From contig CAJQRU010000054.1 in NCBI GenBank assembly GCA_905612355.1, positions 1 through 36,816 on the forward strand: 36,816 bases of DNA, given 5' to 3'. Under the pieces are notes generated by a model, which worked only from the letters and a program-made list of their open reading frames with translations, was not told the DNA's origin and made no database searches. Below, in pieces: positions 14,905 through 31,933 of this stretch (positions are counted from its first letter, which is position 1; the number at the start of each line of letters is the position of its first letter). A program made the position numbers and the translations under genes. The DNA comes from an uncultured Gammaproteobacteria bacterium. Lineage in GTDB: Bacteria > Pseudomonadota > Gammaproteobacteria > Arenicellales > UBA868.

Positions 14905-14935
14905 ATTCCGTGCCGGCGGAATATAGCTCGCTATA
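14905..14935. other. Two abutting inverted repeats between tRNA-Glu and the AhpD-like gene
   Basis: ATTCCG (14905-14910) pairs with CGGAAT (14917-14922), and TATAGC (14922-14927) pairs with GCTATA (14930-14935). The second one covers the stop codon of the AhpD-like gene. They lie where tRNA transcription from the left meets the long minus-strand run from the right. They may end or protect transcripts from both directions, although neither has a T run. Confidence 0.4.
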
Positions 14936-15317
14936 CCGAATCAATTGGAATTTGATAACCGTGAACGAGTTTATTTGTTTCATTCGCCATCCCCACCACC
15001 GCCATTAATTCCCCGAACATCGCATCTGTCATGCCTTTTGAACTCGCTGATGCAGTGTGCGAGCGGATACAGTAAGCACAGTTATTGGTCGCACTCACCG
15101 CGATGTAAATCAACTCTTTGGTTAAAGGATCCAACGCACCTGGCCCCATGATCTCTTTCAAACTGTGCCAAGTTCTGCGCAGCGTGACTGGATCATTGGC
15201 CAGATATTTCCAGAAATTATTCACATCGTTAACCTCTCGCGCCTGTTTGATCTCATCATAGATTTTACGCACTTCGATTGAAGCATCACTGTATTCAATA
15301 GGATTAGGGCTCGTCAT
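14931..15317 (-). CDS. AhpD-like / carboxymuconolactone decarboxylase-family protein
   Basis: A small alpha-helical protein with the AhpD redox signature: E68 in DPLTKELIYIAVSA, then NNCAYCIRSHTASA with C80, C83 and H87. Such proteins act as disulfide reductants or peroxidase-like enzymes; the exact substrate cannot be read. The ATG at 15317 is chosen because GGAGA lies about seven bases upstream. It follows the MFS gene by 14 bases and is the last gene of the minus-strand run. CMD-domain proteins often sit in catabolic operons. Confidence 0.82.
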   Translation of the reverse strand: MTSPNPIEYSDASIEVRKIYDEIKQAREVNDVNNFWKYLANDPVTLRRTWHSLKEIMGPGALDPLTKELIYIAVSATNNCAYCIRSHTASASSKGMTDAMFGELMAVVGMANETNKLVHGYQIPIDSV

Positions 15318-15331
15318 CACTGATCTCCGGT

Positions 15332-16573
15332 TTACTCATCAAATGAATTTTTGTGCTCGGTCCCAAGCAGGGAAACCAAGACAAATAGCGCACAACCGAT
15401 TCCTGCAAACAAACCAAGGCCAACGCCGAAACCTTCCGTAACATCGTACAACACACCAAGCACCACGGGCCCTGCGACACCTCCGAACTCTGCAGCTGAG
15501 AAGAAAAGTCCAGTAGCTGTACCGGCGCGGCCTACACCAATATCCGGCAATTCAAGCATTGTGAGAATCAAAACCGTCATCATCGACGCGGAGGCAATGC
15601 CATGTAACACGAAAGCAGCCACTAACCCAGGGCCCGTTGACGTTATGGCATAAAAAACGCAACCAATGGCGACTGAGAGAAACAGGCCTCGCAACACGTG
15701 ATAACGATGTTGCGGCGTTGCCAATCTAGGTATAACCAAGGCACCAAGTATACCGATTACGACAGGAATCGCCGCCCAGTAACCCGCCTGATCGACCGAC
15801 ATTCCGCCAGCACGTAATAACTCAGGCAACCAGTTGCCCAGCCCATGAGTAATCATCAAAACACCGACCCCCATCATCATCAACAAACGAACATCGCGCA
15901 ACGCCAGCAATTCGATTAAATCGGTCATGCGAACACGTTGTGTGCTCACTTCAGCCCGCGGGCTACCGGAAATGGTGGCTAATACGATCCAAGCCCCAGT
16001 GGCTAACAGAGTAATCCATCCCCAAACGCGTAATACCAGACGCCAATCGTGATCAAACCAGGGCATAAACACAGAGTTCGTCAAAGCAAAACATACGACC
16101 ACTCCTAGACCTGGACCGGTAATATAAATGCCCATCGCAAGGCCTCGTTGGCGGCCCTGAAACCATTGGCCGACAACCTTTGGCGCTCCGGCTGACACAA
16201 TCGGCCCTCCCAATCCAAATAGCCCCACAGCAATGAATAATTCGGAGTAAGTCCCGGCGTAACTTCGCATCAAAGCGGAAACTGCCATCAGAACACCACC
16301 CAAAACCAACGCACGACGTGCGCCAATCCGATCCAGCAGCATTCCGCAGGGAATAGCAGCGCCAATAAAAACTAACTGCCAGGCGCCGAGAATGGTGCCC
16401 ATCTCGGTATGATGCATCCCAAAATCTGATTCAATCACTGCCACCAATGGTGCCAGGCTTGCCATGTTCAGACCAAACGCAAAGTACAAACACCACACAC
16501 CTGCAAGCGGCAACCATCTCCGGTGCGGCCGTTCGCCATACCCTAGCTGATCAGATATTCTCGAATCAGTCAT
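15332..16573 (-). CDS. Major facilitator superfamily transporter
   Basis: A 413-residue inner-membrane protein with about twelve hydrophobic segments. The motif A-like loop after the second helix is present (GMLLDRIGARRALVLGG, near 77-93), and a central cytoplasmic loop falls around 205-222. FGLNMASLAPLVAVIESDFGM at the N-terminus and the GLGGPIVSAGAPKVVGQWF segment resemble anion and cyanate/nitrate-type MFS members, but the substrate cannot be assigned. It starts 54 bases after the broken dehydrogenase gene and is followed closely by the AhpD-like gene. It could import or export a compound handled by the neighbouring catabolic genes. No clear ribosome-binding site is visible. Confidence 0.85.
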   Translation of the reverse strand: MTDSRISDQLGYGERPHRRWLPLAGVWCLYFAFGLNMASLAPLVAVIESDFGMHHTEMGTILGAWQLVFIGAAIPCGMLLDRIGARRALVLGGVLMAVSALMRSYAGTYSELFIAVGLFGLGGPIVSAGAPKVVGQWFQGRQRGLAMGIYITGPGLGVVVCFALTNSVFMPWFDHDWRLVLRVWGWITLLATGAWIVLATISGSPRAEVSTQRVRMTDLIELLALRDVRLLMMMGVGVLMITHGLGNWLPELLRAGGMSVDQAGYWAAIPVVIGILGALVIPRLATPQHRYHVLRGLFLSVAIGCVFYAITSTGPGLVAAFVLHGIASASMMTVLILTMLELPDIGVGRAGTATGLFFSAAEFGGVAGPVVLGVLYDVTEGFGVGLGLFAGIGCALFVLVSLLGTEHKNSFDE

Positions 16574-16627: not shown

Positions 16628-17587
16628 TTAACCCAGGCCGACAACACGCACTTCATGACCCACACTTTCACGTTCGTTATCAACGATCTCAGATGGAAAA
16701 CCCGGTGCCCACAGCCTTTCCCCACAGGCTTCTTCCAAGGCCACAACAATGTTCGGTGACCAGGCCTTCTCTCCCAGGCGCGACTTTGCCTGCCTAAACA
16801 ATTGTAATACTTGGGGTGAAAGCTCTAGTGGTATTGCGGCCCGATCCGCTAAATCCTGAAAAAACCCCATGTCTTTTACTACCAGGTCCATCGTGAAATT
16901 AATATTGCGGCTACCATTCAGAATGACCTGGCTTTCCGTCTCATGAACAAACGAATTACCCGAAGAAATACGAATCCCTTCATAGGTCGTCGCAAGATCG
17001 AGCCCTGATTTCTTTGCGGTCATCATGGCTTCACCCAATTCAACCAGATGGACAGACGCCAAATAGTCAGTCACGACCTTGAGCACCGATGCAGAACCCA
17101 GAAGTCCTGTATGCAGTATCTGCCTTCCCATCGCAGTCAAAACGGGTAATGCCCGCTCAAATGTTTCGCGTTCACCTCCGGCGAAGATAGAAATATTGCC
17201 CGTCGCTGCACGGTGACATCCCGCGGATACGGGGCAATCCATCGGGGCCCCGCCCAATGCCCTGACCTTATCCCCCAAACGATGCACTTCGCTCTCATCG
17301 GCGACGCTCATTTCGACCCAGATGTTCCCTGCGGCAGTTCCACTAGCACACCATCGGCAGCCTCCATCACCCCCGCGCTGATGGCTGGGCTGGGCAAACA
17401 GGTAATGACCCTATCCACTTTCGCCGATAACAGCCGCCGGCGAGTCCGCCCACTTCGCCCCCAGCGAAAGAAGTGGTTGTGCCACGCCAACATCAAGATC
17501 ACGAACCGTGAGTTCAAAGCCATTTCGCAAAAGACTGCCTGCCAGTTTGCCGCCGACATTGCCCAAGCCAATAAACCCAACCCTCAT
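16628..17587 (-). pseudogene. 3-hydroxyisobutyrate dehydrogenase-type NAD(P) oxidoreductase, two frameshifts
   Basis: The intact ancestor would be a beta-hydroxyacid dehydrogenase. The ATG at 17587 has AGGAG seven bases upstream and starts MRVGFIGLGNVGGKLAGSLL, a Rossmann dinucleotide site. This frame hits TAG at 17413-17411. From there the family sequence continues one frame over as DRVITCLPSPAISAGVMEAADGVL to about 17322. It then returns to the first frame as NIWVEMSVADESEVHRLGDKV and runs to 16628, with the family's substrate and catalytic-lysine regions (PMDCPVSAG; GSASVLKVVTDY). One extra base near 17413 and one missing base near 17322 explain everything. A sequencing error at both sites cannot be excluded, but the broken gene just upstream favours true decay. 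Confidence 0.8.
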
Positions 17588-17641: not shown

Positions 17642-18240
17642 CTATGAACTGCCCGTTATCCCGTGAACCCGAGTCATGACCTCGCTGCGTGCGACAACAC
17701 TGGCGCTCTGGTCAATCACGAATGCCGACCCATCTGGGCCAGGCACTGCAAATGCCAGTGGATTGGTGCCGATGACCGCTTGATGGCCGCCGTGCGGTGC
17801 GATCAATGCCGGTGCATTAGTAAACCCGAACGCTACCAAGCCCGCCTCAGCAAGGCGTTCGACATGGTAACCGAGCACACCCCAGTTATATGAATTCCTG
17901 ATAACGAGGCAAGCACAACCTTGTTGATGCGCCGCCGGAATCAGCGCTTCAAAACCAAGGTCGATCGCCGGATGTGCAAATCCCGTCCCGGCATCAACCA
18001 CAATAGCGCCGCCCATCTGGTGCCGTTGAACCGGCATCGCCTGCCCATCCACCTTTCCACACATTACGTGTTCGCAATAAACGGAACATAAATCAACCCG
18101 TGACTGCGAATACCATCACGCTCCGCCGCCATCACCGCCCTAGCCAACGACCGTGCCGCTGTTGGTGACGTTCCAACCTTCAGCAAAGCCGCTTCAGCCA
18201 ACTCCTGCACTTCATCCAGCAAAAGTTTTTGTTCAGTCAT
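17642..18240 (-). pseudogene. Malate/L-lactate dehydrogenase family (Ldh2), frameshifted and C-terminally truncated
   Basis: The family (YlbC/AllD/Ldh2 type) reduces 2-oxo acids or oxidises 2-hydroxy acids with NAD(P). The ATG at 18240 starts MTEQKLLLDEVQELAEAALL and runs through AERDGIRSHGLIYVP, then hits TAA at 18066-18064. One missing base near 18080 restores the family sequence VYCEHVMCGKVDGQA and joins it to the second frame, 18064-17642. That frame carries GGAIVVDAGTGFAHPAID, IRNSYNWGVLGYHVERLA, GTNPLAFAVPGPDG and DQSASVVARSEVM, then stops. Family members have roughly 330-360 residues; only about 200 remain, and the 54 bases before the next gene cannot hold the rest. The loss of the C-terminal part argues for a real pseudogene. 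Confidence 0.82.
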
Positions 18241-18264: not shown

Positions 18265-18972
18265 TCAATCCGTGTCAATACGACCGGCACCGGCTCCCTT
18301 TTCCCGCGAAATATCGGAATCTGGAATCAGCGTTTTCGCGCCCCATTGATGAAGGAACAGTAAGTCGGCCCGCCCTATTTCTACACCATTTTGATAAACG
18401 CTCTTCTGGCGATGAACTAATGCGGCATCATTCCACAAGACCGATCCAGTGACCTCAGGCGGATTCCAATCACAGGTAAAACACAAGTCAAGAACCCCCG
18501 ATCGATGCAACGGGCGGTAACCTTCTCCTAAGAATGTACAGCCATCATTGTCCACCTGTAGCCCCTGTCGATTACCCGACGGATCGGGCCATGTGAGCTT
18601 CACCGAACCATCCCCTATCGCATGCGCCACCATTGCGAGCAACAACAAAGGTTCGTCCGGAGAGGCAACTGTCATCGGCGTTGGAACCAATGACCGATGA
18701 TCTATTACCACCGCACCAGCGTACAAGGCCGATACCATCTGATTTTCCATGACCGCGCACAGCTTCCTCTCCCCCGTCCACTTGACGCCCACAGATCGCC
18801 GTTCCAGCCAATGGGTCAAGGCCCGCACCACAAGTCTTGCTCCTGGCAAACCATACTGACATAACCAACGAGTTGCCCGTGCACTCAGGCTAGCCAAACC
18901 CGGCTCAAGACCAACCCCAACGGCTGCTTTCAATACTAGACTTTCCGCTTCCGCCAGAGACGCCTGCATCAT
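18265..18972 (-). CDS. DUF3726-like protein
   Basis: A 235-residue protein of unknown function. The N-terminal pattern EAESLVLKAAVGVGLEPGLASLSARATRWLCQYGLPGARL (within about 7-47) matches my recollection of DUF3726. The rest contains a segment TPMTVASPDEPLLLLAMVAHAIGDGSVKL and a Trp-rich C-terminal part. No signal peptide, membrane helix or catalytic motif is evident, so it is probably cytoplasmic. The ATG at 18972 overlaps the stop of the upstream 554-residue gene by four bases (ATGA), which indicates co-translation and probably a joint function. The two broken dehydrogenase genes follow 24 bases downstream. In intact relatives it may accompany such dehydrogenases; that is an inference. Confidence 0.65.
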   Translation of the reverse strand: MMQASLAEAESLVLKAAVGVGLEPGLASLSARATRWLCQYGLPGARLVVRALTHWLERRSVGVKWTGERKLCAVMENQMVSALYAGAVVIDHRSLVPTPMTVASPDEPLLLLAMVAHAIGDGSVKLTWPDPSGNRQGLQVDNDGCTFLGEGYRPLHRSGVLDLCFTCDWNPPEVTGSVLWNDAALVHRQKSVYQNGVEIGRADLLFLHQWGAKTLIPDSDISREKGAGAGRIDTD

Positions 18973-20633
18973 GCCACTCGAGGACGAACTGGAAAGCACC
19001 AGTCATCCGCATCGAGCTGGGGCAGGTCACAGGGGAATGGTGCGCCCTGGTACAGGGTAATACGCGTCCACAGATCCGATTTGGGATCAAACTTTGATGC
19101 ACCAAAAAACGCAAGCTTCCAACGCAACAGATCGATAGGTCGGCTCCCGGCAGCAATCAGATTGCCCTGCACCTCGCCGTAGGGGTATTGCGCAATAGTC
19201 TGCACACGGCCGACCGTGTGTCGATGCACCGGGTATTGCATCAGCAAGGTGGCTACCGGCGTAACCGCACTAAACGACGACAGGCACTGGTACAAACGCT
19301 GGACATCGCGCGCCACCGCGATCGGCATTTCGCGCTCGGTACCCGCTTCGTTATCACGCAATCCAAGACGCGGCTCCATTTTGTCTTCGGAGTAGTACCA
19401 AAAATAGGTATTGGCATCCCTATCGTTGAAATCACTCTCAAAGGTCCATGCATAGACTTGTTCGATGACATTTCTTAATGTTTCAATCTGCATGGAACCA
19501 TCCAACGGTGTTCGTACCTCTGTTGCCAGGCACTTCTCAAGTGGATCAATCTCGCCTGGATACAACTCAATCAGCAGACTGACGACCAGTTCCTGACATT
19601 CGATCGACGCTTCTGTCACGGTCCAGCAATAAACCGCATCCCACGGTGTCTCACGCTCAAGCGGTGATGTTTCACTATCCACCCATGCGCTCAGACGAAC
19701 CAGGTCTGAGGACAATTCGTCAATCCGTCGCCGCTGCACCTCATCTGCAACGCACCAATCAGCCACATGGCCCTTCACCCGTTGCAGAAGCTCGTAAAAG
19801 CGTTGTCGAACCGACCCTTGCGCCCACTGCATGGAACGCACTTTCTGTAACGCGATTTCTCGCGTGTTGGCCCAGTAATGAATCAGTTCTGGATGCGTGA
19901 TCAGGAAAGGCGCCATGCCCAAGCCTGTCGCGTTGCCAATGCCAAGGAATCGCTTGTTTTCACTGGCCATCGGCACAAAAGTGTCCGGCGACTGGCATCG
20001 TGCGACATGTTCAACATGATCGAGCGTAAAACAGCGAATCAGGTAGACAATCAGCATCTCGGCTTGGAATGGGCCAGCGAACTCCGGACGATCGGTCAGA
20101 CGACCCCTATCACAAGTGCCAAATTTTCCGTTGCCATAAACTGCGGTCGTCCGCATTAGATAGCCAACTTCCGCCAGACGTGCAATGTCTGGCTGCCTAC
20201 CCTCGGCTAATGCATCCCGCACATGTTCATAGAGCCTCACACTGCGGTTCGCCCTCGATAAGATCAGGTCAGATGGACAAAAGCGCCCTCCCTCCTGACG
20301 CGGCGCCTGGACTGCCAATCGCTTAACCTCCGCGCTGGTTGGTAGGCCGTCGAATAACACAAAACACGCATCCCACGATTCAGCGATCACTCGATCCGTT
20401 CGCTGATCGTCACGAAGCGGATTTGAAAATACCATCAGGCTATAGGTTCTATGCGGTCCACGAGCCGCATAAATCGCATGACCATAACCCTGGTCGTCTA
20501 GATCAAAGGCCGTCGACTCTATTTGCCATTGCTCCCGGTGCAAACGACGAACCAGTGAACGCATGAAACTCAGGCGGGTAGGAAAAGCGGCCCCCATACG
20601 CTCAGGACGCATCACCTCTGAGGGCAATCGCAT
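18969..20633 (-). CDS. Conserved-looking protein of unknown function, 554 residues
   Basis: I do not recognise this gene. The ATG at 20633 is preferred over the TTG at 20687, which would overlap the dipeptidase-like gene; the leading residues before it are atypical. The product is soluble and rich in Arg, Trp and aromatic residues, with no signal peptide or membrane helix. Possible conserved blocks by composition are FDLDDQGYGHAIYAARGP (about 43-60), YGNGKFGTCDRGRL, the central ENKRFLGIGNATGLGMAPFL and DANTYFWYYSEDKMEPRLGLR. Codon use and frame length argue for a real gene. Its stop overlaps the DUF3726-like start by four bases and it lies 25 bases after the M19-type gene, so it is part of the same operon. 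Confidence 0.7.
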   Translation of the reverse strand: MRLPSEVMRPERMGAAFPTRLSFMRSLVRRLHREQWQIESTAFDLDDQGYGHAIYAARGPHRTYSLMVFSNPLRDDQRTDRVIAESWDACFVLFDGLPTSAEVKRLAVQAPRQEGGRFCPSDLILSRANRSVRLYEHVRDALAEGRQPDIARLAEVGYLMRTTAVYGNGKFGTCDRGRLTDRPEFAGPFQAEMLIVYLIRCFTLDHVEHVARCQSPDTFVPMASENKRFLGIGNATGLGMAPFLITHPELIHYWANTREIALQKVRSMQWAQGSVRQRFYELLQRVKGHVADWCVADEVQRRRIDELSSDLVRLSAWVDSETSPLERETPWDAVYCWTVTEASIECQELVVSLLIELYPGEIDPLEKCLATEVRTPLDGSMQIETLRNVIEQVYAWTFESDFNDRDANTYFWYYSEDKMEPRLGLRDNEAGTEREMPIAVARDVQRLYQCLSSFSAVTPVATLLMQYPVHRHTVGRVQTIAQYPYGEVQGNLIAAGSRPIDLLRWKLAFFGASKFDPKSDLWTRITLYQGAPFPCDLPQLDADDWCFPVRPRVA

Positions 20634-20658: not shown

Positions 20659-21645
20659 TCACGCTTGCGCCGTAAAGGAGGCTTCAAAGAAACGCAGCCA
20701 GTTCTCCCCCATCAACTGCCCGACTTCACGTGCATCAAATCCTTCACTGAGCAACGCTTGACGCAGGCCGGGAAAACTGCGGTTATCCTGAAACCAGGTG
20801 GGTTGTTCAGGAAACCCGGCTTGTTTCGATGAGCCTTCTCCATAATCTGTCTCCTGCGTCCAGCGACCGTTACGCATCCAGTGCACTACGCTGTCTGGCT
20901 GGTCCTGACACAGATCGCTGCCAATACCAAGATGCTCTATTCCCAAACGATCTGCCATTGTCCGCACCATGTTCGCGAAACTGATCAACGTACAATCACT
21001 GCCACCCTTTAAATGATGTGGATAAAACGAAAATCCAATCATCCCACCGGAGTTAGCCAATTCACGCAAGACATCGTCGGATTTGTTGCGTAACGCCGGA
21101 TGCCAGTTCGCTGGGTTCGCGTGGGTGATTGCGATGGGTCGCTCGGAAATCTCGATCGCCTCTAAAGTAGAGCGCTCGGATGAATGGCTCATGTCGATCA
21201 CCATGCCAACCCGATTCATTTCTTTGATAACCTGACGCCCCATTCGAGTGATACCAGGATCTTCGCGCTCGTAACATCCTGTCGCTAAAAGACTCTGATT
21301 GTTATAGGACAACTGCATGAACCGAACACCCATCCGATGCCACACCTGGACCAGGCCCAGGTCATCTTCAATTGGCGAACAATTCTGAAAACCGAAAATA
21401 ATGGCCGTACGCTCTTGCTCACGAGCCGCCCGAACATCGGCCGCCGAACAGGCATGAACAATCAACTCTGGATATGCAGAAAAGCGTCGATTCCACTCTT
21501 CAATATTGGCAACCGTTTCTCGAAAGGTCTCATGATAGGCGATGGTGACGTGCACCGCGTCAACACCCCCCTGCCGCATCTGTCGAAATACTTTTTCAGA
21601 CCACGCCGCGTACTGCAGGCAATCGATAGTAATGGATTCTGTCAC
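20659..21645 (-). CDS. Membrane dipeptidase-like protein (M19), divergent metal site
   Basis: Related to renal dipeptidase, a zinc TIM-barrel hydrolase. Conserved family segments are LGLVQVWHRMGVRFMQLSYNNQSLL (near 95-120), VGMVIDMSHSSERSTLEAI with the metal-type His in MSHSS, RPIAITHANP with the second His, and HLGIGSDLCQD. The usual HxD pair at the N-terminus is replaced by TIDCLQYAAW, and the bridging Glu of the VEG segment is Gln in FGFQNCSPIEDD. The amidohydrolase chemistry may therefore differ. The GTG start at 21645 has GGAG eight bases upstream. It follows the GT2 gene by 64 bases and precedes the 554-residue gene. I recall similar divergent M19 proteins in proteobacterial catabolic loci, function unknown. 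Confidence 0.82.
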   Translation of the reverse strand: MTESITIDCLQYAAWSEKVFRQMRQGGVDAVHVTIAYHETFRETVANIEEWNRRFSAYPELIVHACSAADVRAAREQERTAIIFGFQNCSPIEDDLGLVQVWHRMGVRFMQLSYNNQSLLATGCYEREDPGITRMGRQVIKEMNRVGMVIDMSHSSERSTLEAIEISERPIAITHANPANWHPALRNKSDDVLRELANSGGMIGFSFYPHHLKGGSDCTLISFANMVRTMADRLGIEHLGIGSDLCQDQPDSVVHWMRNGRWTQETDYGEGSSKQAGFPEQPTWFQDNRSFPGLRQALLSEGFDAREVGQLMGENWLRFFEASFTAQA

Positions 21646-21709: not shown

Positions 21710-22723
21710 TTATTCTTTGCCGTGCTTATACGACGGCGTGCCAGATCGACGGATATGCGCCATCCTTCGAAGGTCAATACGGTATGAAACCCACCCCAGC
21801 GGCAACATCAACACCCACAGCAGGCGCGCCAAGGGGTTGGTCAGACGACTCGCCTGGGCTGCCACACCTTGGTGGCCGAGAAATGAAAAGCGTGTGTAAT
21901 GAACAGCAGAGCGAAAAAACGCGCCAGGAATCGCGCCGAACCAGTTAATCTCTTGATTGAGCGCACTTTCGTGCTGGAGTGCGTGACCCGCCGCCCGCTC
22001 ACCTGAGGGGATGCGACGGATCAACTGATCATCGCGACCCGTAGCACCAACAAAATAGATCCTGAGCATTTCGTTGACATAACGAGTTTGGTACTCACGG
22101 GCAATCGCGTTCCACACCACACCTTCAGGGATGTATAAACGCGGGCGCAGTGGAAACGGGAATTGCCGCAGAACATCGGTTCGATGAAATCCCCATTTTT
22201 CCCCTCGCACACGATAGCGATAGATTAATTCCAATGCATCTGAGTCGAGCGTGTCATTGGGAAAACGATCACCCACCAATTGCCCCTCAGGATTCATGCA
22301 CAGCGCCGTCACTGCGGAAAACTGTTCTCTCTGGTCTGGGGGGATCGACTCCCAGTGGAACACAAAACGCTCCAACGCATCGGGAACACAAGCATCGTCA
22401 GAGTCCAGCACCAGAAATAACTCACCTAATGCCTCTTCCACCGCCCAGTTATGGGCCAGATGTTTTCCCGAGTTCGCCTGGTGCAGGTAGCGAATAGGAA
22501 AGGTCGCGTCATCTTGCCAAGACGTTACCAGTTTTCTCGTTCCGTCCGTGGAACCATCGTCGATGACGAGCCATTCGAAATCATCAAAGGTCTGCACCGA
22601 CAGCGAGTCATACACTCGAGACAAAGTATCAGCCCGGTTAAATGTGGGGGTAAACACAGTAAAGCGGTAGCGATACGCCCCGCTCGTCCCAGCCCCACCA
22701 CGCCTGTCATGATTACTGTTCAT
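21710..22723 (-). CDS. Family 2 glycosyltransferase
   Basis: A GT-A fold nucleotide-sugar transferase. The N-terminal domain shows FTVFTPTFNRADTLSRVYDSL (21-41), the nucleotide-binding WLVIDDGSTDGT (51-62) and the DxD-type LDSDDACVPDALE (106-118). A C-terminal hydrophobic segment (LLWVLMLPLGWVSYRIDL, near 307-324) could associate with the membrane. Acceptor and sugar cannot be inferred. It sits between a DddP-like enzyme and an M19-like enzyme, with 60-70 base gaps on both sides, which is unusual for a cell-envelope enzyme. The ATG at 22723 has only a weak ribosome-binding site. Confidence 0.85.
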   Translation of the reverse strand: MNSNHDRRGGAGTSGAYRYRFTVFTPTFNRADTLSRVYDSLSVQTFDDFEWLVIDDGSTDGTRKLVTSWQDDATFPIRYLHQANSGKHLAHNWAVEEALGELFLVLDSDDACVPDALERFVFHWESIPPDQREQFSAVTALCMNPEGQLVGDRFPNDTLDSDALELIYRYRVRGEKWGFHRTDVLRQFPFPLRPRLYIPEGVVWNAIAREYQTRYVNEMLRIYFVGATGRDDQLIRRIPSGERAAGHALQHESALNQEINWFGAIPGAFFRSAVHYTRFSFLGHQGVAAQASRLTNPLARLLWVLMLPLGWVSYRIDLRRMAHIRRSGTPSYKHGKE

Positions 22724-22790: not shown

Positions 22791-24020
22791 CTATAGCCAA
22801 TCAATTTCATAGGGGTAAGTCGACAGGCGCTCAACGCGGTCTTCTGTAACCAACACTTGCTCTTCCAGTTTGATGCCTTCACGACCCCCTTCACCGCCGA
22901 TAAACGACTCTACACAAAGCGTCATTCCCGCCTCAATCACCCCATCATAGCCACCGCCCTCGAAATCACACCAGTGCTTAATGCTGGGGTATTCATCAGC
23001 CAGGCCAACACCGTGGATGACAGAACTGTATCGATGCGCAAGAAATGCCTCCGGGATAGGCCAACAGGCCTGCGCCAGGTCACGGAAACTCATCCCCGCC
23101 CGCAGGACAGCGATATTGTGTTGAATCTGTTCATAAGCGATAGCATACAGTCGCCGTTGTTCATCGTTCGGTCGATCACCGCATACCCATGCCCGTGAGA
23201 TGTCTGAGCAATAGCCATAAGGGCCAACCAGGTCCGTATCGAAACTGACCACGTCATTCTGTTCTATCTGCCGCATCGAGCATTCCCGAAACCACGGATT
23301 GGTCCTGGGACCCGATGCAAGCAAGCGCGTCTCGATCCATTCCCCACCCTGGCGAATATTGGTTTCATGCAATCTCGCCCACAGCGCATTTTCTGTAATG
23401 CCCGGCTCCAGCGCTTCGCGCATGCTATCCATCCCCGCCTGGCACACCGCCACGGACGCCCGCATCAACGCTATTTCTTCACTCGACTTAATCGCCCGGG
23501 CGCGTTCGGTCACTTGCTGCCCCTCCACCAGCTCAAGCCCCTTGGTCCGTAGCGCGTCGGTTGCGGGAAATGACAATACATCGATGGCCAATCGCCGATT
23601 ACCGCCACCATGGCGGCGCATCAGATCATCAATCTCATCGGCAAAACGCAGAACGAACTCCGGCCCACGATCGCCACGCGCAAAGTAGTAAAACCCTGGC
23701 AATTTCCGATACTCATCAACGGTCGGCAAATCTTGTGCCAGATACGGATGGTTAGCGTAGTCAAACAAAACAACCGGCCCATCGAGTGCAACAAACACAC
23801 AGCGCGTTTCATAATGCGAGCACCACACCTGCATGTTGGTCGCATCAGTCGCGTAGCGGGTGTTGATCTGGTCAAACAGGAGCAACCCAGCTACGTCGTG
23901 ACGTAACATTTCCTGGCGCAATCGATCACACCGATAACGACGAACAACATCAAGGTTAACGGGTGGATTTGAAAATTCCATTGCCCCGTGTTGACGCGAC
24001 TGCTTTTCAGTTGACTTCAT
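22791..24020 (-). CDS. M24-family metalloenzyme resembling DMSP lyase DddP
   Basis: Creatinase/prolidase-fold protein of 409 residues. It matches my memory of DddP, which splits dimethylsulfoniopropionate into acrylate and dimethyl sulfide: NTRYATDATNMQVW (53-66), GGEWIETRLLASGPRTNPWF (225-244), FDTDLVGPYGYCSDISRAW (260-278), IHGVGLADEYP (335-345) and KLEEQVLVTED (384-394). The metal ligands of DddP are all present (D261, D263, D273, H336, E371, E386), as are the residues at the positions of its catalytic Asp (D342) and substrate Tyr (Y331). The ATG at 24020 has GGAG nine bases upstream. Neighbours handle methylated amines. Related M24 proteins with other substrates exist, so lyase activity is a hypothesis and I withhold the symbol. 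Confidence 0.82.
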   Translation of the reverse strand: MKSTEKQSRQHGAMEFSNPPVNLDVVRRYRCDRLRQEMLRHDVAGLLLFDQINTRYATDATNMQVWCSHYETRCVFVALDGPVVLFDYANHPYLAQDLPTVDEYRKLPGFYYFARGDRGPEFVLRFADEIDDLMRRHGGGNRRLAIDVLSFPATDALRTKGLELVEGQQVTERARAIKSSEEIALMRASVAVCQAGMDSMREALEPGITENALWARLHETNIRQGGEWIETRLLASGPRTNPWFRECSMRQIEQNDVVSFDTDLVGPYGYCSDISRAWVCGDRPNDEQRRLYAIAYEQIQHNIAVLRAGMSFRDLAQACWPIPEAFLAHRYSSVIHGVGLADEYPSIKHWCDFEGGGYDGVIEAGMTLCVESFIGGEGGREGIKLEEQVLVTEDRVERLSTYPYEIDWL

Positions 24021-24083: not shown

Positions 24084-25157
24084 TTATGGCTCTATAGGCG
24101 CATTCAACACAGCACCCGAAACGCGAATACCACCCCGAATCATGCCAGGTGTAATCGTTCCGTAGCGTTCTTGAAATGCCATCGGCAAAGGTCGACCATC
24201 TGCAGTCGAAAGCCATAACCGGAGCAGGTGACGCTGATGTTCTATCGCTGGCCAATCTTCGTAAGTCGTTCGCGAGTGCAGGATTTGATGATTGTGCAAC
24301 AACTGAATATCTCCAGGTTCAAACACCATGTCGAACCGCAAGCGGTCACTCGCAACCAACTTGTCGAGCAAATCCATAGCCTCAATCTGTTCGGGGAGCA
24401 ACCGCGGTACATCGTCAAAACGTTGCGCCGCTTCGATAAAATCCCTGGAATAAATACACGTGACATAACCCGCATGTCGATGAAACACAGCCAATTGATA
24501 CGTCGGCTCTTTACCCAGGGGTATCTCGTCTTTCCGATCTACATAGAAGGGCTGACACAAAACCTCGAGGAGGTCGGGTCGTTGCTCGGCCAACACGTTA
24601 AAGGCGCTTGTAGATGAAGCGATAGCACTTGCCCCACCCCGGCGCGCCGCTTTTACGCACAATAAACCGACAATATCGGTGGAGTCCGTGTGAAAGGGCT
24701 GTCGGTAGTTGGTTTGATAAACCCGCGTCACGGGATCAGAAGGGTCATTGCCAAGATCTTTGACATGACCCAGAAGATGACCCGACGCATTTTGCGAGAC
24801 GGCCTGACCTATATGACAACCCATCCCGTAGTAGACCCTCGCCGTTAAAGCCGGCGACCACTCACCGACAGGCAGTCCACGCAGCAACACAAATCCTCGC
24901 CCTTGGAGAATCTCTCGCCGAAGCTCGGCAAGCGTAACGGCCAACTCGTCGAGTGGAAAATCATCCGCCTGCAGCTCGGGGAGCGGCACTCTTGTGCTGT
25001 GCGCAGCCGCGCGCGTTAGTTCATTCAGCTCCGCGTGAGTAAAACGGTAAATCCAGTCGTCATTACCATCAAAATCTTGGGAAAACCAGGCGGCAGGATC
25101 ATCCGCACGCACCACGGATTGAGTGACCGCTTCAGGCAGCTGGTCGCCTTCACTCAT
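24084..25157 (-). CDS. TauD/TfdA-family Fe(II)/2-oxoglutarate dioxygenase
   Basis: Oxidative enzyme that hydroxylates a small substrate using Fe(II), 2-oxoglutarate and oxygen; family members act on taurine, 2,4-D and gamma-butyrobetaine. The iron triad is visible: H156 and D158 in RQPFHTDSTDIVGLLC, and H294 in LLHNHQILHSRTTYEDW. The 2-oxoglutarate-binding Arg is R313 in RHLLRLWLS. The 357-residue length is typical of gamma-butyrobetaine hydroxylase-like members. The ATG at 25157 has AGGA about eight bases upstream; the adjacent GTG is less well placed. It lies 74 bases after the DMGDH-like gene. Substrate is not predictable, though the neighbourhood suggests a betaine or related osmolyte. 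Confidence 0.88.
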   Translation of the reverse strand: MSEGDQLPEAVTQSVVRADDPAAWFSQDFDGNDDWIYRFTHAELNELTRAAAHSTRVPLPELQADDFPLDELAVTLAELRREILQGRGFVLLRGLPVGEWSPALTARVYYGMGCHIGQAVSQNASGHLLGHVKDLGNDPSDPVTRVYQTNYRQPFHTDSTDIVGLLCVKAARRGGASAIASSTSAFNVLAEQRPDLLEVLCQPFYVDRKDEIPLGKEPTYQLAVFHRHAGYVTCIYSRDFIEAAQRFDDVPRLLPEQIEAMDLLDKLVASDRLRFDMVFEPGDIQLLHNHQILHSRTTYEDWPAIEHQRHLLRLWLSTADGRPLPMAFQERYGTITPGMIRGGIRVSGAVLNAPIEP

Positions 25158-25231
25158 CACGTTAATCCTCTCTCACCGCGCCATGTCACCTGCCCCCAAT
25201 CGCGTCATATGGGGCTTTCACAGCACCTCGG

Positions 25232-27658
25232 CTAACCACGCATGCGCTCTGCTTTGGGATCGAACAAGGGCGTCACCTGTAATTTTGCACCCCGACGTTC
25301 GCCCAGAATCTCAATTTCCCAACCATCATCTTCGTTCGCGCAAGCCCACGGCACATAACCCATAGCAACCGATACAGACGAACCGTGCGCATAACCGCCA
25401 GAGGTTACCCAACCTCTCACCTCACCGTTTAACCAGATTGCTTCGTCGCCGATCACGTCCGCATCTTTTGCATCCACGACAAAAGTGCGTAACCGCATGG
25501 TACCGCCGTGTTCCTTTTCTGCCATTGCCGCTGACTTACCGATAAAATCAGCTTGTTTCTTCAGAGCGACAAAGCGACCCATACCGGCCTCATAAGGTCC
25601 ATAGATTGGTCGGTATTCCCGCGCCCATGAGCCAAAATTCTTTTCCAGACGCAGGGCATTGAGCGCCCGTGACCCAAACAGCCGTAGGCCATGCTCTGCG
25701 CCTGCTGCCAGCAACACTCCTAGCACATGCCGTTGATACTCCGGCTCCATCCAGATCTCATACCCCAGATCTCCGGTATAACTGACACGGCCCACCAGAC
25801 ACGGTGCCATGCCAACATCCATTTCTCGAATATCCATAAAGGTGAACGCGTTAGCCGAAACGTCTTCGGACGTCACTGAAGCCAAGACCTGACGAGACTT
25901 GGGACCCGCAATCGAAAGACCGACGATGCCAGCACCATGCGGCATGACCTCCACCGAGTCATCGTCAGGGAGATTCTGCAGAAACCACCGCATGTGATAC
26001 GCCTCGGCAACACCAGCGCCAGCAACAAAATATTCATTGTCCCCCAGATTAGCTAGGCTGAAATCACCAATCAGTTTTCCGTTCGAATTCAGCATGGGAG
26101 CCAGGGTCATTCGATCTTCTTCGGGCAAGCGACAGGCCAGTAATTCATCCAACCATGCTGGGGCACCGACGCCCGAGATGGAATACTTGGCAAAGCCCGA
26201 TATCTCCATTAGACCGACGCCCTCCCGTACCGCCCTTACTTCAGCCGCGACATGTTCGAAATCAGTTGAACGGCGCCAGGAAAATTCATCCTTCACTCCG
26301 TCAGGTGCGAACCATAACGGCTGCTCAAGCCCGTAGGCCTCGCCCATCTGAGCACCAGCGGCCAGCAATTGATCATAGACCGGTGTGGTGCGCAGAGGCC
26401 GACCCGCAGGCAGTTCTTCATTGGGAAAGCGGATGGAAAAACGACGAGAATAGTTTTCCTTCACCTTTGCATTCGTATACGGCAAACTGGTCCAGTCCCC
26501 AAATCGAGCGACGTCCATTGCCCAGACATCAAATCCGGGATCACCCTCGACTATCCAATTGGCCAGTGCCAAACCCACGCCACCGCCCTGACTGAAGCCC
26601 GCCATCACAGCACAGGCACACCAAAACCCAGGCAACCCCTTGATTGGTCCCACCAGAGGATTGCCATCAGGCGCAAACGTAAATGGGCCATTGATAATCT
26701 GCTTAATACCCGCCTGCTGAAAAGCCGGGAAATGCTGGAAGCCTATCTCGAGCGACGGTGCGATACGATCAAGGTCCGCTGGTAACAGATCCTGACCGAA
26801 ATCCCATGGCGTCTGGGTCGGTGACCAGGGGACACAGGCTTTCTCATAGGTGCCCATGAGCATGCCCTTTCGTTCCTGACGCAAATATATCTCGCCGTCA
26901 AAATCAACCGCGTGCATCATCTCCTTACCAGAGGCCTCATTAAACGCCGTGACTTCCGGCATGTCCTCAGTGATTAGATACATGTGCTCCATGGCAAGAA
27001 CAGGCAATTCCAAACCGACCATGCGACCCACCTCACGCGCCCAAAGCCCCCCCGCATTAACCACGTGTTCAGCGACTATCTCGCCCCCCTCAGTCATCAC
27101 ACGCCAACTGCCGTCGACCTGCTGATGAAGATCGGTCACTCGAGTCTGCGTATAAATGGTGGCTCCATTCTTTCGCGCCGCCTTGGCATACGCGTGAGTG
27201 ATACCACTCGGATCAAGATGGCCCTCCATCGGGTCGAACATGGCGCCTTCAAATTGACTAGGGTCAATCAACGGCATGATCTCAGCTGCTTCGCGAGCAC
27301 TGATGATTTCTGTCTCCATGCCCAAGTAGCGACCTTTCGCATGAATGCTCTTTAGCCAATCGAAGCGAGCCGGCGTCGCCGCCAGCATGATACCGCCAGT
27401 CATGTGCAGCCCAATTGACTGCTCTGAAATCTCTTCTATATCGCGGTAAAGCTCTATGGTGTACTGCTGCAATTTAGCAACGCTCGGGTCACCGTTAATG
27501 GTGTGCATTCCACCCGCCGCATGCCAGGTTGATCCCGAGGTAAGTTCTTTTCTCTCAAGCAATACCACGTCAGACCAACCTAGCTTGGTCAAGTGATACA
27601 ACACTGAGCAGCCCACCACACCACCGCCGACGACCACGACTTGTGCCTGAGTCTTCAT
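25232..27658 (-). CDS. Dimethylglycine/sarcosine dehydrogenase-like FAD and folate-domain oxidoreductase
   Basis: An 808-residue flavoprotein with two parts. The N-terminal DAO domain has the Rossmann motif VVVVGGGVVGCSVLYHLTKLG (7-27) and GSTWHAAGG, whose H46 matches the His that binds FAD covalently in dimethylglycine and sarcosine dehydrogenases. The C-terminal half (about 430-808) is a GcvT-like tetrahydrofolate domain: GVGLMEISGFAKYSISGVGA, SYTGDLGYEIWMEPEYQ, LNALRLEKNFGSWAREY and a GCV_T C-terminal barrel. Such enzymes oxidatively remove a methyl group from an N-methyl amino acid and pass formaldehyde to THF. It follows the MttB-family gene by 38 bases. The exact N-methyl substrate is not established. 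Confidence 0.9.
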   Translation of the reverse strand: MKTQAQVVVVGGGVVGCSVLYHLTKLGWSDVVLLERKELTSGSTWHAAGGMHTINGDPSVAKLQQYTIELYRDIEEISEQSIGLHMTGGIMLAATPARFDWLKSIHAKGRYLGMETEIISAREAAEIMPLIDPSQFEGAMFDPMEGHLDPSGITHAYAKAARKNGATIYTQTRVTDLHQQVDGSWRVMTEGGEIVAEHVVNAGGLWAREVGRMVGLELPVLAMEHMYLITEDMPEVTAFNEASGKEMMHAVDFDGEIYLRQERKGMLMGTYEKACVPWSPTQTPWDFGQDLLPADLDRIAPSLEIGFQHFPAFQQAGIKQIINGPFTFAPDGNPLVGPIKGLPGFWCACAVMAGFSQGGGVGLALANWIVEGDPGFDVWAMDVARFGDWTSLPYTNAKVKENYSRRFSIRFPNEELPAGRPLRTTPVYDQLLAAGAQMGEAYGLEQPLWFAPDGVKDEFSWRRSTDFEHVAAEVRAVREGVGLMEISGFAKYSISGVGAPAWLDELLACRLPEEDRMTLAPMLNSNGKLIGDFSLANLGDNEYFVAGAGVAEAYHMRWFLQNLPDDDSVEVMPHGAGIVGLSIAGPKSRQVLASVTSEDVSANAFTFMDIREMDVGMAPCLVGRVSYTGDLGYEIWMEPEYQRHVLGVLLAAGAEHGLRLFGSRALNALRLEKNFGSWAREYRPIYGPYEAGMGRFVALKKQADFIGKSAAMAEKEHGGTMRLRTFVVDAKDADVIGDEAIWLNGEVRGWVTSGGYAHGSSVSVAMGYVPWACANEDDGWEIEILGERRGAKLQVTPLFDPKAERMRG

Positions 27659-27696
27659 GTTACGCTCACTATCTCGGTTGATTAATATTTTTTTTA

Positions 27697-29241
27697 CTAG
27701 TCAAGATCATTATTGCCGATCTCGTTTTTTCGCTTCGCCACATAGTCATCGAGCGCCTCACCGCAGGCCAGATCTAACATCGGCAACTGGTAATTTGCAA
27801 GCACTGATTGCCAAAGTTGTGTCGCGCGCTGAGTCGTGTCTAGTGCGCCTGCGATCACCCAATTTTCATGATTCTGCCAATCACTGACCAGTGGTTGATA
27901 AAACGCATTTTCGTATCGTGTCATCGTGTGTTCAGCACCAAAGAAATGCCCTCCCGGTTCGACGCTAGCAATTGCAGACAACCCGAGTTCCTCTTCGTTT
28001 ACCTCTATGGGTGCAAAAACGGCAGCCATTGCGCCCAGCACTTCGGCGTCGATAACCACCTTTTCGAATGATGCAACCAACCCCCCCTCAAGCCATCCTG
28101 CCGCATGGTAAACAAGATTGCCATGACCTAGAACAGCACTCCACAACGACATCTGCGTCTCGTAAACGGCCTGTGCATCGACCACATTAGACGCGTTACA
28201 ACCGCTGGTGCGATAGGGTAGATCGTAACGCCGAGCCAATTGCCCCCCCGCCAAATTTGCCTTCGCATTCTCGGGCGTACCAAAGGCGGGAGCACCTGAA
28301 CGCATATCAACATTCGAAGTAAAACCACCATACACCACTGGTGCGCCGTTACATGCTAATTGAACGAGGCAAACACCAAACAGTGCTTCTGCATTCTGTT
28401 GCACTAAGGCTGCCGCCAACGTCACGGGCGCCATGGCGCCCATCAACGTGAACGGAGTCACGATCACTGGCTGCCCCAACATCGCCAACTCGATGGCCGC
28501 ATCCGCCATCGCCCCATCGAGCCGACGCGGTGAATTGATATTGATGTTGCCCACCAACACCGGTCGAACGCTAACCTCCTCCATAGTCAATCCGTGAGCC
28601 AATGCACACATCTGGACCGCATCTCTGACTCGAATCGCGCCAATGGGAACAGCAGAGAACACCTTGTCTGTTAACGTTAGATTAGCCCTGTAACAGTCGA
28701 GGTGACGGGTATTGACCGGAAGATCAGTCGGGGCCACCGTTTGGTTACCAAACAAACTAATGGCGTTCAAACTGTGTCCCAACTTGATCAGTTTTTGATA
28801 ATCGTCAAAATTACCCGCGCGACGCCCATTAATACAATCGTGTACGTTGGGCGGCCCGGAAACCATACCGAAGTAAATGCGATTACCCCCAAGGTGCATC
28901 GCTTTTTCCGGATTGCGTGGGGTGATCGTAAAAGACGATGGCGCCTTCGCAATTAATTCTAAAACCAACTCTCGATCAAGACATACGACATCGTTATTGA
29001 TCCGCGCCCCAGCCGCCTTGAAAAGATCACGCGCGCGGGCACCCATCACTTCGAGCCCCTGCTCTTCCAGTAAAGAGAGTGAGGCTTCGTGAATAGCCTC
29101 TAATTGATCAACCGACAGCAACTCAAGTGGTGGCGAATTATTCTCAAGCACCGACCACGGCGCCTGTTGCAATGCACTGCCGCCCTGGCGCGCCGTCACT
29201 CGCGCCGCCCGTGCCCGCGTTCTTTGCCCTCGCCGACTCAC
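27697..29241 (-). CDS. Trimethylamine/quaternary-amine methyltransferase, MttB family, non-pyrrolysine
   Basis: A 514-residue MttB superfamily member. Family features include the basic start MSRRGQRTRARAARVTARQ, SLLEEQGLEVMGARARDLFKAAGA (56-79), VGNININSPRRLDGAMADA (230-248) and the segment SGCNASNVVDAQAVYE (346-361) that aligns with the site carrying pyrrolysine in archaeal MttB. No in-frame amber codon occurs, so it belongs to the non-Pyl branch that demethylates glycine betaine, carnitine or similar quaternary amines in studied cases. Those enzymes hand the methyl group to a corrinoid protein; none is encoded in this window. The GTG start at 29241 has a poor ribosome-binding site. It lies between the amidase and the DMGDH-like gene. 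Confidence 0.88.
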   Translation of the reverse strand: MSRRGQRTRARAARVTARQGGSALQQAPWSVLENNSPPLELLSVDQLEAIHEASLSLLEEQGLEVMGARARDLFKAAGARINNDVVCLDRELVLELIAKAPSSFTITPRNPEKAMHLGGNRIYFGMVSGPPNVHDCINGRRAGNFDDYQKLIKLGHSLNAISLFGNQTVAPTDLPVNTRHLDCYRANLTLTDKVFSAVPIGAIRVRDAVQMCALAHGLTMEEVSVRPVLVGNININSPRRLDGAMADAAIELAMLGQPVIVTPFTLMGAMAPVTLAAALVQQNAEALFGVCLVQLACNGAPVVYGGFTSNVDMRSGAPAFGTPENAKANLAGGQLARRYDLPYRTSGCNASNVVDAQAVYETQMSLWSAVLGHGNLVYHAAGWLEGGLVASFEKVVIDAEVLGAMAAVFAPIEVNEEELGLSAIASVEPGGHFFGAEHTMTRYENAFYQPLVSDWQNHENWVIAGALDTTQRATQLWQSVLANYQLPMLDLACGEALDDYVAKRKNEIGNNDLD

Positions 29242-30922: not shown

Positions 30923-31933
30923 ATGCAGTTTGGCCGCTCAAAGATCACGCCGGACATTGACCTGACCGCACAAGGAAAGGAAATCGGTTGTCTGCGCATA
31001 CCCCATTCAGTCCATCGCTCGGCCTACGGCTGGCTGCCGATGCCGGCCGTATCCATACGCCATGGCGACGGGCCGCGTGTATTGATTACGGCAGGCAATC
31101 ACGGAGACGAGTACGAAGGTCAGATTGCCGTTTCTCGACTGGCCCGCGAACTGCAGCACGATGAGATTCATGGTCATCTTCTCTTGTTGCCGATGTCCAA
31201 CTTCCCCGCCGCTAAAGCCGGTCGCCGCACGTCACTCATTGACGAAGGAAACCTGAATCGAAGCTTCCCCGGTGATCCAGAAGGTACACCGACCTCCATG
31301 ATTGCGCATATGATCGAAGAAGAATTACTGCCGCATTTTGATTTGCTCATTGACCTCCATTCCGGCGGATCCTCGCTGTATTATCTTCACGCCACTCAGG
31401 TGCTTCTGCAGCCGGATGGCCGCATCAATCCAGTAGAAAAAATACTGGCAAACGCCTACGGTGCCCCATTTAATCATGTCATGCGTGAAGAAGGGTCGAA
31501 TCACTCAGCCGAAGCAGCACGCCGCCAAGGTGCGCTATTGTTGTGCTCTGAATTTGGCGGAGCCGGAACGGTAACGCCAGAAACGCTGCGTATCTGCGAA
31601 CATGGACTACGACGCGCATTACATGCATTCAACCTCATAGAACACCTGCCTGACTATATTGATGCACCAACATCACCCCGTTACCTTGAGATTAAAGGTC
31701 AAGCGCATTACGTGTATGCGCCAGAAGACGGCCTTTATGAACCCTTAGTAACGCTCGGGGATGAAGTCAGCGCCGGTGATGTAGCAGCCGCCATTCACTT
31801 TCCCGAGAGTCCGGCTCAAGAGCCGGTGCTCACATACTTTACCGGCGAGGGTGTTGTCGTTTGCAAACGAATCCCGACGCAATGTCAACGCGGCGATTGC
31901 TTGTTTCACCTCGCCAGCGAGTGGCCTGGTTAA
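30923..31933 (+). CDS. Succinylglutamate desuccinylase/aspartoacylase family deacylase, DoeB-like
   Basis: A zinc deacylase of the M14-like AstE/AspA family. It resembles DoeB, which removes the acetyl group from N-acetyl-2,4-diaminobutyrate in ectoine breakdown: LITAGNHGDEYEGQIAVSRLA with zinc ligands H60 and E63, GNLNRSFPGDPEGT (109-122) with R113, and DLLIDLHSGGSS with H146. A C-terminal small beta domain (about 250-330, VYAPEDGLYEPLVTLGDEVSAGD) is of the kind seen in longer members. No doeA, doeC or doeD is in view, so ectoine catabolism is not proved and other N-acyl amino compounds are possible. It has no ribosome-binding site and lies 22 bases before the creatininase-family gene. Confidence 0.83.
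   Translation: MQFGRSKITPDIDLTAQGKEIGCLRIPHSVHRSAYGWLPMPAVSIRHGDGPRVLITAGNHGDEYEGQIAVSRLARELQHDEIHGHLLLLPMSNFPAAKAGRRTSLIDEGNLNRSFPGDPEGTPTSMIAHMIEEELLPHFDLLIDLHSGGSSLYYLHATQVLLQPDGRINPVEKILANAYGAPFNHVMREEGSNHSAEAARRQGALLLCSEFGGAGTVTPETLRICEHGLRRALHAFNLIEHLPDYIDAPTSPRYLEIKGQAHYVYAPEDGLYEPLVTLGDEVSAGDVAAAIHFPESPAQEPVLTYFTGEGVVVCKRIPTQCQRGDCLFHLASEWPG

Follow-up and report, generated by a model that had tools for sequence, protein, structure and literature searches.

Two overlapping genes in an uncultured gammaproteobacterium raise the question of whether a 554-residue protein and its DUF3726-like partner form a new enzyme, as an initial annotation had proposed, and which pathway such an enzyme would serve. 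The genes lie in a stretch of 36,816 nucleotides (contig CAJQRU010000054.1, assembly GCA_905612355.1), here called the window, from a draft genome with 143 contigs and 62% completeness, whose nearest named relatives are marine gammaproteobacterial MAGs. The features discussed are listed in Table 1.

Table 1. Coordinates of the gene pair and its neighbors in the window.
Feature	Position	Strand
554-aa protein, core subunit, no known family	18969..20633	-
DUF3726 protein, 235 aa from overlapping ATG; Ldh_2-type fold (model) without catalytic His	18265..18972	-
Codons of conserved DUF3726 C-terminal tail GAGAG-x-x-D-x-D	18268..18297	-
M19 "membrane dipeptidase" homolog, upstream partner, without HxD metal motif	20659..21645	-
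M24 DddP-like protein, constant upstream neighbor in the window's family	22791..24020	-
Ldh_2 oxidoreductase pseudogene, 1-bp and 411-bp deletions; intact congener copies DpkA-like	17642..18240	-
3-hydroxyisobutyrate-dehydrogenase-like (HIBADH-like) gene, frame-broken (+1/-1)	16628..17587	-
MFS transporter, usual neighbor in the window's family	15332..16573	-
Carboxymuconolactone decarboxylase (CMD)/AhpD-like protein, neighbor in the genus	14931..15320	-

A linked gene pair and its distribution

Both minus-strand reading frames bear out the overlapping arrangement: the first (554 aa) reads from ATG at 20633 to TGA at 18971-18969, the second (235 aa) from ATG at 18972 to a stop at 18265, and the stop and start codons overlap as ATGA. 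The second protein is DUF3726-like, as proposed, with a score of 28.6 bits against PF12525 (cut-off 22.1). When compared with congeners, dN/dS was 0.13 for the 554 gene and 0.25 for the DUF3726 gene, and about 0.08 for the neighboring M19 gene. Both genes of the pair are intact in the window and under purifying selection.

To evaluate the linkage, gene neighborhoods were surveyed at 94 distinct loci carrying a 554 relative, mostly from Proteobacteria. DUF3726 lies directly downstream of the 554 gene in 90 loci and is fused to it in one; the remaining three are divergent and fall outside the profile, with an ORF visible in the DUF3726 place in two of them (L033 and L090). The fusion is annotated as one protein (WP_199201047.1) on a plasmid of Mesorhizobium sp. 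131-2-1 (L028, 9947-12391). Other apparent fusions, seen as long frames in L089, L091, L100/L130 and L108/L138, had no match to the neighboring proteins and were read as out-of-frame stretches. The pairing is far beyond chance, and the lack of co-occurrence that would have spoken against the initial proposal was not what the survey returned.

Relatives of 554 turned up in 61 of the 100 relatives sampled, in 16 of 369 members of the class and in 29 of 398 members of the phylum, counts that do not represent independent events since the genome samples consist partly of close relatives. They were also found on 168 plasmid records, chiefly from Sinorhizobium and Phaeobacter, and from Vibrio, Caballeronia, Roseateles, Pseudomonas and the haloarchaeon Natrinema; none were found in viral contigs. 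An M19 gene, which lies upstream of the pair in most loci, is present in 31 of the 37 loci whose flanks are complete. The two genes are real and form a closely linked module within an operon that is widespread. The co-conservation and the one fusion are as expected of an enzyme complex, and to this extent the proposal of a new enzyme or complex holds, but the pair does not stand isolated and belongs to a widespread catabolic operon.

Operon context and candidate substrate

The M19 gene lies 25 bp upstream of the 554 gene on the same strand, so the "divergent" of the initial annotation is wrong if orientation was meant; it is probably in one transcription unit with the pair. Its product matches Pfam M19 with 265 bits, and in operon copies H154, H175 and D244 are invariant, and E93 nearly so. 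With metal-ligand positions as in renal dipeptidase, we find D-x-L-Q in place of the N-terminal HxD ligands in 12 of 12 operon copies, with the other ligands kept. Operon copies therefore resemble M19 dipeptidases (renal dipeptidase, 1itq) in their Pfam match and remaining ligands, but do not have the full binuclear site with HxD, and their D-x-L-Q replacement is as in 2i5g-like amidohydrolases. Judged from this replacement, "dipeptidase" is probably a misnomer for the operon protein.

Further upstream, the M24 protein scores 436 bits against the NCBIfam model of the DMSP lyase DddP, below the equivalog cut-off of 600, and aligns with PDB 4rzy (E 1e-106), including the DxD, D, H, E, E positions; DddP-like genes are common beside M19-554-DUF3726 in the window's family. 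Between the DddP-like and M19 genes lies a gene for a family 2 glycosyltransferase (21710-22723, minus strand), which among the surveyed loci was seen only in the window's genus. The interval 24084-29241 (minus strand) contains an MttB-family methyltransferase gene, an adjoining DMGDH-like FAD/GcvT fusion and a TauD-type dioxygenase gene, an apparent methylated-amine demethylation block, and at 30923-31933 (plus strand) there is an AstE/AspA-family deacylase that resembles the ectoine-degradation protein DoeB (229 bits, cut-off 403).

Across the surveyed loci, type I operons comprise a LysR regulator gene (usually divergent), aldehyde dehydrogenase, M19, often a BCCT transporter, 554, DUF3726 and often Ldh_2, and some end with a glycine-betaine or branched-chain-type ABC transporter. 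Type II, that of the window's family, comprises DddP-like M24, M19, 554 and DUF3726, with variable Ldh_2 and HIBADH genes, an MFS transporter and sometimes CMD; in some of these loci MttB, DMGDH-like demethylase and TauD genes lie upstream. A third, divergent rhizobial type (about 31-33% identity) carries IclR, M19 and a spermidine-type ABC transporter, to which the S. meliloti version adds a class III aminotransferase and an aldehyde dehydrogenase. On pSymB of Sinorhizobium meliloti 1021 (L033, 9139-20327), the genes are IclR, 554-like (31%), DUF3726-like, M19, the spermidine-type ABC transporter, the class III aminotransferase and aldehyde dehydrogenase; this version, found in a model organism amenable to genetics, probably serves another substrate. 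The Ldh_2 proteins of the operon are closest to delta1-piperideine-2-carboxylate reductase (242 bits; next, 183), and its aldehyde dehydrogenases to 2,5-dioxovalerate/alpha-ketoglutaric semialdehyde dehydrogenases, below the cut-offs for these families.

A clue to the substrate came from Roseobacters. In Ruegeria TM1040 (TM1040_RS02320-RS02345) and Phaeobacter, the operon adjoins genes for a heterotetrameric enzyme of the sarcosine-oxidase type and for an AraC regulator; in Roseateles, a sarcosine-oxidase-type set and an AraC regulator also stand beside it, with purU-folD further along the locus. A tree built from 32 alpha subunits places those of TM1040 and Phaeobacter within a clade with 100/99 support, most other members of which lie 3-14 kb from glutamine-synthetase-like genes; copies of 45-50% identity group in another clade. 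The Roseateles alpha subunit branches outside the TM1040/Phaeobacter clade, and its gene set is therefore weaker evidence. The proximity of alpha-subunit and glutamine-synthetase-like genes resembles the methylamine cluster of R. pomeroyi (gmaS-mgs and mgd operons), where mgd is near gmaS. In the window, Mgd-type genes are not linked to the operon; a similar alpha subunit (54%) is encoded on another contig of its genome, and in the window's genus the Mgd-like alpha subunit had no glutamine-synthetase-like genes beside it.

According to PMC13390433, Mgd takes part in homarine catabolism (citing doi 10.1038/s41564-026-02313-7), and the tmaR-mgd linkage is kept in strains without the upstream TMA pathway. 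Homarine is drawn down by Ruegeria pomeroyi within hours (PMC12817926). Our literature search on homarine catabolism genes returned only a citation, that of Ferrer-Gonzalez et al. 2026 (doi 10.1038/s41564-026-02313-7) in PMC13390433. The operon described here is like those published genes, as far as the citing paper conveys them, in its Mgd-type linkage in Roseobacters and in enzyme types that would yield N-methylglutamate. The window operon differs from what is conveyed there by its absent aldehyde dehydrogenase and broken Ldh_2.

Because of the Mgd-type neighbors, the pathway would lead from a betaine to N-methylglutamate, and would most likely be that of homarine. As a lead, removal of the C6 carbon from homarine would leave the skeleton of N-methylglutamate, a compound that the operon activities could produce. 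The homarine operon reportedly consists of five genes and a regulator, homABCDER; presumably this number would fit aldehyde dehydrogenase, M19, 554, DUF3726, Ldh_2 and LysR, which is a lead and not a test. On balance, we favor the interpretation that 554 and DUF3726 are the subunits of one heteromeric enzyme, and that its operon breaks down a cyclic N-methyl betaine taken up by the cell, most likely homarine (N-methylpicolinate). According to the citing paper, this likely pathway is already the subject of a publication.

The substrate of the operon may also vary by sub-group. It is possible, if doubtful, that the same kind of operon acts on trigonelline, proline betaine, a lactam or a small peptide-like osmolyte, with the DddP-like M24 and the MFS transporter marking such a change in the window's family, where they occupy the places held by aldehyde dehydrogenase and BCCT elsewhere. 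Several 554 members have no nearby Ldh_2, and the divergent rhizobial and haloarchaeal groups have different neighbors (transporters of other kinds, IclR regulators or a class III aminotransferase), so that substrates may differ there; many 554 carriers are plant-associated soil bacteria. However, an N-methyl pyridine-2-carboxylate agrees well with the Mgd-type genes in Roseobacters and with the DpkA-like Ldh_2, and the operon would serve a betaine-like compound, probably homarine.

The window carries a reduced variant of the operon adjoining the DddP-like gene, since both downstream dehydrogenase genes are broken and aldehyde dehydrogenase is absent. The initial annotation was correct that a hydrolase gene and two dehydrogenase genes flank the pair, but the latter are broken copies: the HIBADH-like gene has a +1/-1 frameshift with an in-frame stop, and it and Ldh_2 are both intact in the three congeners that served as reference. 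Neither the genus nor the family of the window yielded a close aldehyde dehydrogenase orthologue (best, 36%), which lowers the homarine-operon claim for the window only. With the aldehyde dehydrogenase and Ldh_2 steps missing or broken, some other route would have to deal with the product, unless the operon is decaying locally. Decay of the whole module, with the pair as a possibly functionless remnant, is unlikely. The two Ldh_2 deletions and the frameshift pair, set against the intact congener copies, agree with it, but M19 and both genes of the pair are intact (dN/dS 0.08-0.25), other family members keep M24-M19-554-DUF3726-MFS without Ldh_2, and the downstream breaks may be assembly errors in a draft genome.

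Properties of the two proteins

The initial annotation could not place the large protein in any family, and neither could we: sequence and profile searches of Pfam (38 family members), NCBIfam (window member only) and PDB gave no clear match, the Pfam searches returning isolated weak matches of which none was significant. A profile comparison with Ldh_2 was also negative. About 40 residues, many of them polar or charged, are invariant across 38 relatives, down to 30% identity, and include R81, W87-D88, R127, N129, R133, R161, R200, H247, E348, W412-Y413, E420-P421-R422 and R476. The set contains many arginines, one histidine, few glutamates and a WYxS...EPRxG motif, and no cofactor or metal motif was recognizable in the protein.

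The AlphaFold2 model of 554, built from nine sequences, was poor (pLDDT 62), with a best Foldseek E of 0.2 and a best Z of 5.3 on a helical part; kinase-like and other fold matches were at noise level only, and a model this weak is no evidence of a new fold. For DUF3726 (pLDDT 63, pTM 0.68), the best 26 Foldseek matches were all Ldh_2 proteins, with VIA-align Z of 9.0-11.8, compared to 5.1 for the first unrelated chain. The modeled fold is thus common to Ldh_2/MDH2 reductases (PF02615; DpkA 1wtj, YiaK 1nxu, ureidoglycolate dehydrogenase 4fju). DUF3726 has weak N-terminal profile similarity to the operon Ldh_2 (E 5.5e-4, probability 30%, 39 columns), and a true Ldh_2 gene is often next in the same operon.

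DUF3726 differs from these reductases in being shorter and in matching PF12525 alone in Pfam, with no PF02615 match. A conserved His or SHG motif was absent from 56 DUF3726 sequences and from A3, while SHG is invariant in the operon's real Ldh_2 proteins. The strongest conservation is instead in the C-terminal tail, GAGAG-x-x-D-x-D. Because the model has an Ldh_2 (MDH2/LDH2) fold but the catalytic histidine is missing, DUF3726 looks like a reductase-derived accessory subunit that would not itself be a reductase. A literature search on DUF3726 found no paper in the collection searched.

Loss of this histidine, along with the want of a cofactor or metal motif in 554, would suit a pair that is non-catalytic on the main substrate and acts as regulator, chaperone or carrier for the operon's M19 or aldehyde dehydrogenase, but such a role is very improbable, given that the invariant, often polar or charged residues of 554 look like an active site and that the pair is also found where aldehyde dehydrogenase is absent and, at some loci, where M19 is not a neighbor. 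Tentatively, the heteromer of 554 and DUF3726 may be a new kind of ring-opening enzyme, with an unclassified large subunit and a small one, derived from an Ldh_2 imine reductase, that has lost its own catalysis and whose C-terminal tail completes the active site of the large subunit.

Proposed reaction sequence and implications

If the operon serves homarine, we infer the following order of steps. A betaine transporter would import the compound, and 554/DUF3726 would attack and open the pyridinium ring, with the active site in 554; DUF3726, lacking the catalytic His, may complete this site through its conserved C-terminal tail. The atypical M19 hydrolase would then remove the C6 carbon, probably as an N-formyl group, and the aldehyde dehydrogenase would oxidize the C5 semialdehyde. 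The DpkA-like Ldh_2 could reduce the N-methyl imine to N-methylglutamate, from which Mgd or a similar demethylase would release glutamate. No other part of the operon is as conserved or as poorly explained, which makes the pair the natural candidate for the first ring attack.

In trigonelline degradation (tgnABCDE), an N-methylpyridinium carboxylate is opened to an N-formyl-N-methyl semialdehyde, followed by the action of an aldehyde dehydrogenase and a hydrolase, and the ring is opened by a two-component flavin monooxygenase. The chemistry proposed for the operon would be alike in its ring opening and in the subsequent aldehyde dehydrogenase and hydrolase steps, but no gene for a two-component flavin monooxygenase was seen in the 554/DUF3726 operon. 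If the proposed sequence is true, it would represent a way to break down N-methylpyridinium compounds that dispenses with the flavin oxygenase of the known trigonelline route.

Homarine and related betaines are abundant marine nitrogenous osmolytes, and the part of this widespread operon that is conserved most has no assigned function in the protein-family libraries searched. The placement of the DUF3726 model in the Ldh_2 fold would give this domain of unknown function its first structural home and a testable role.
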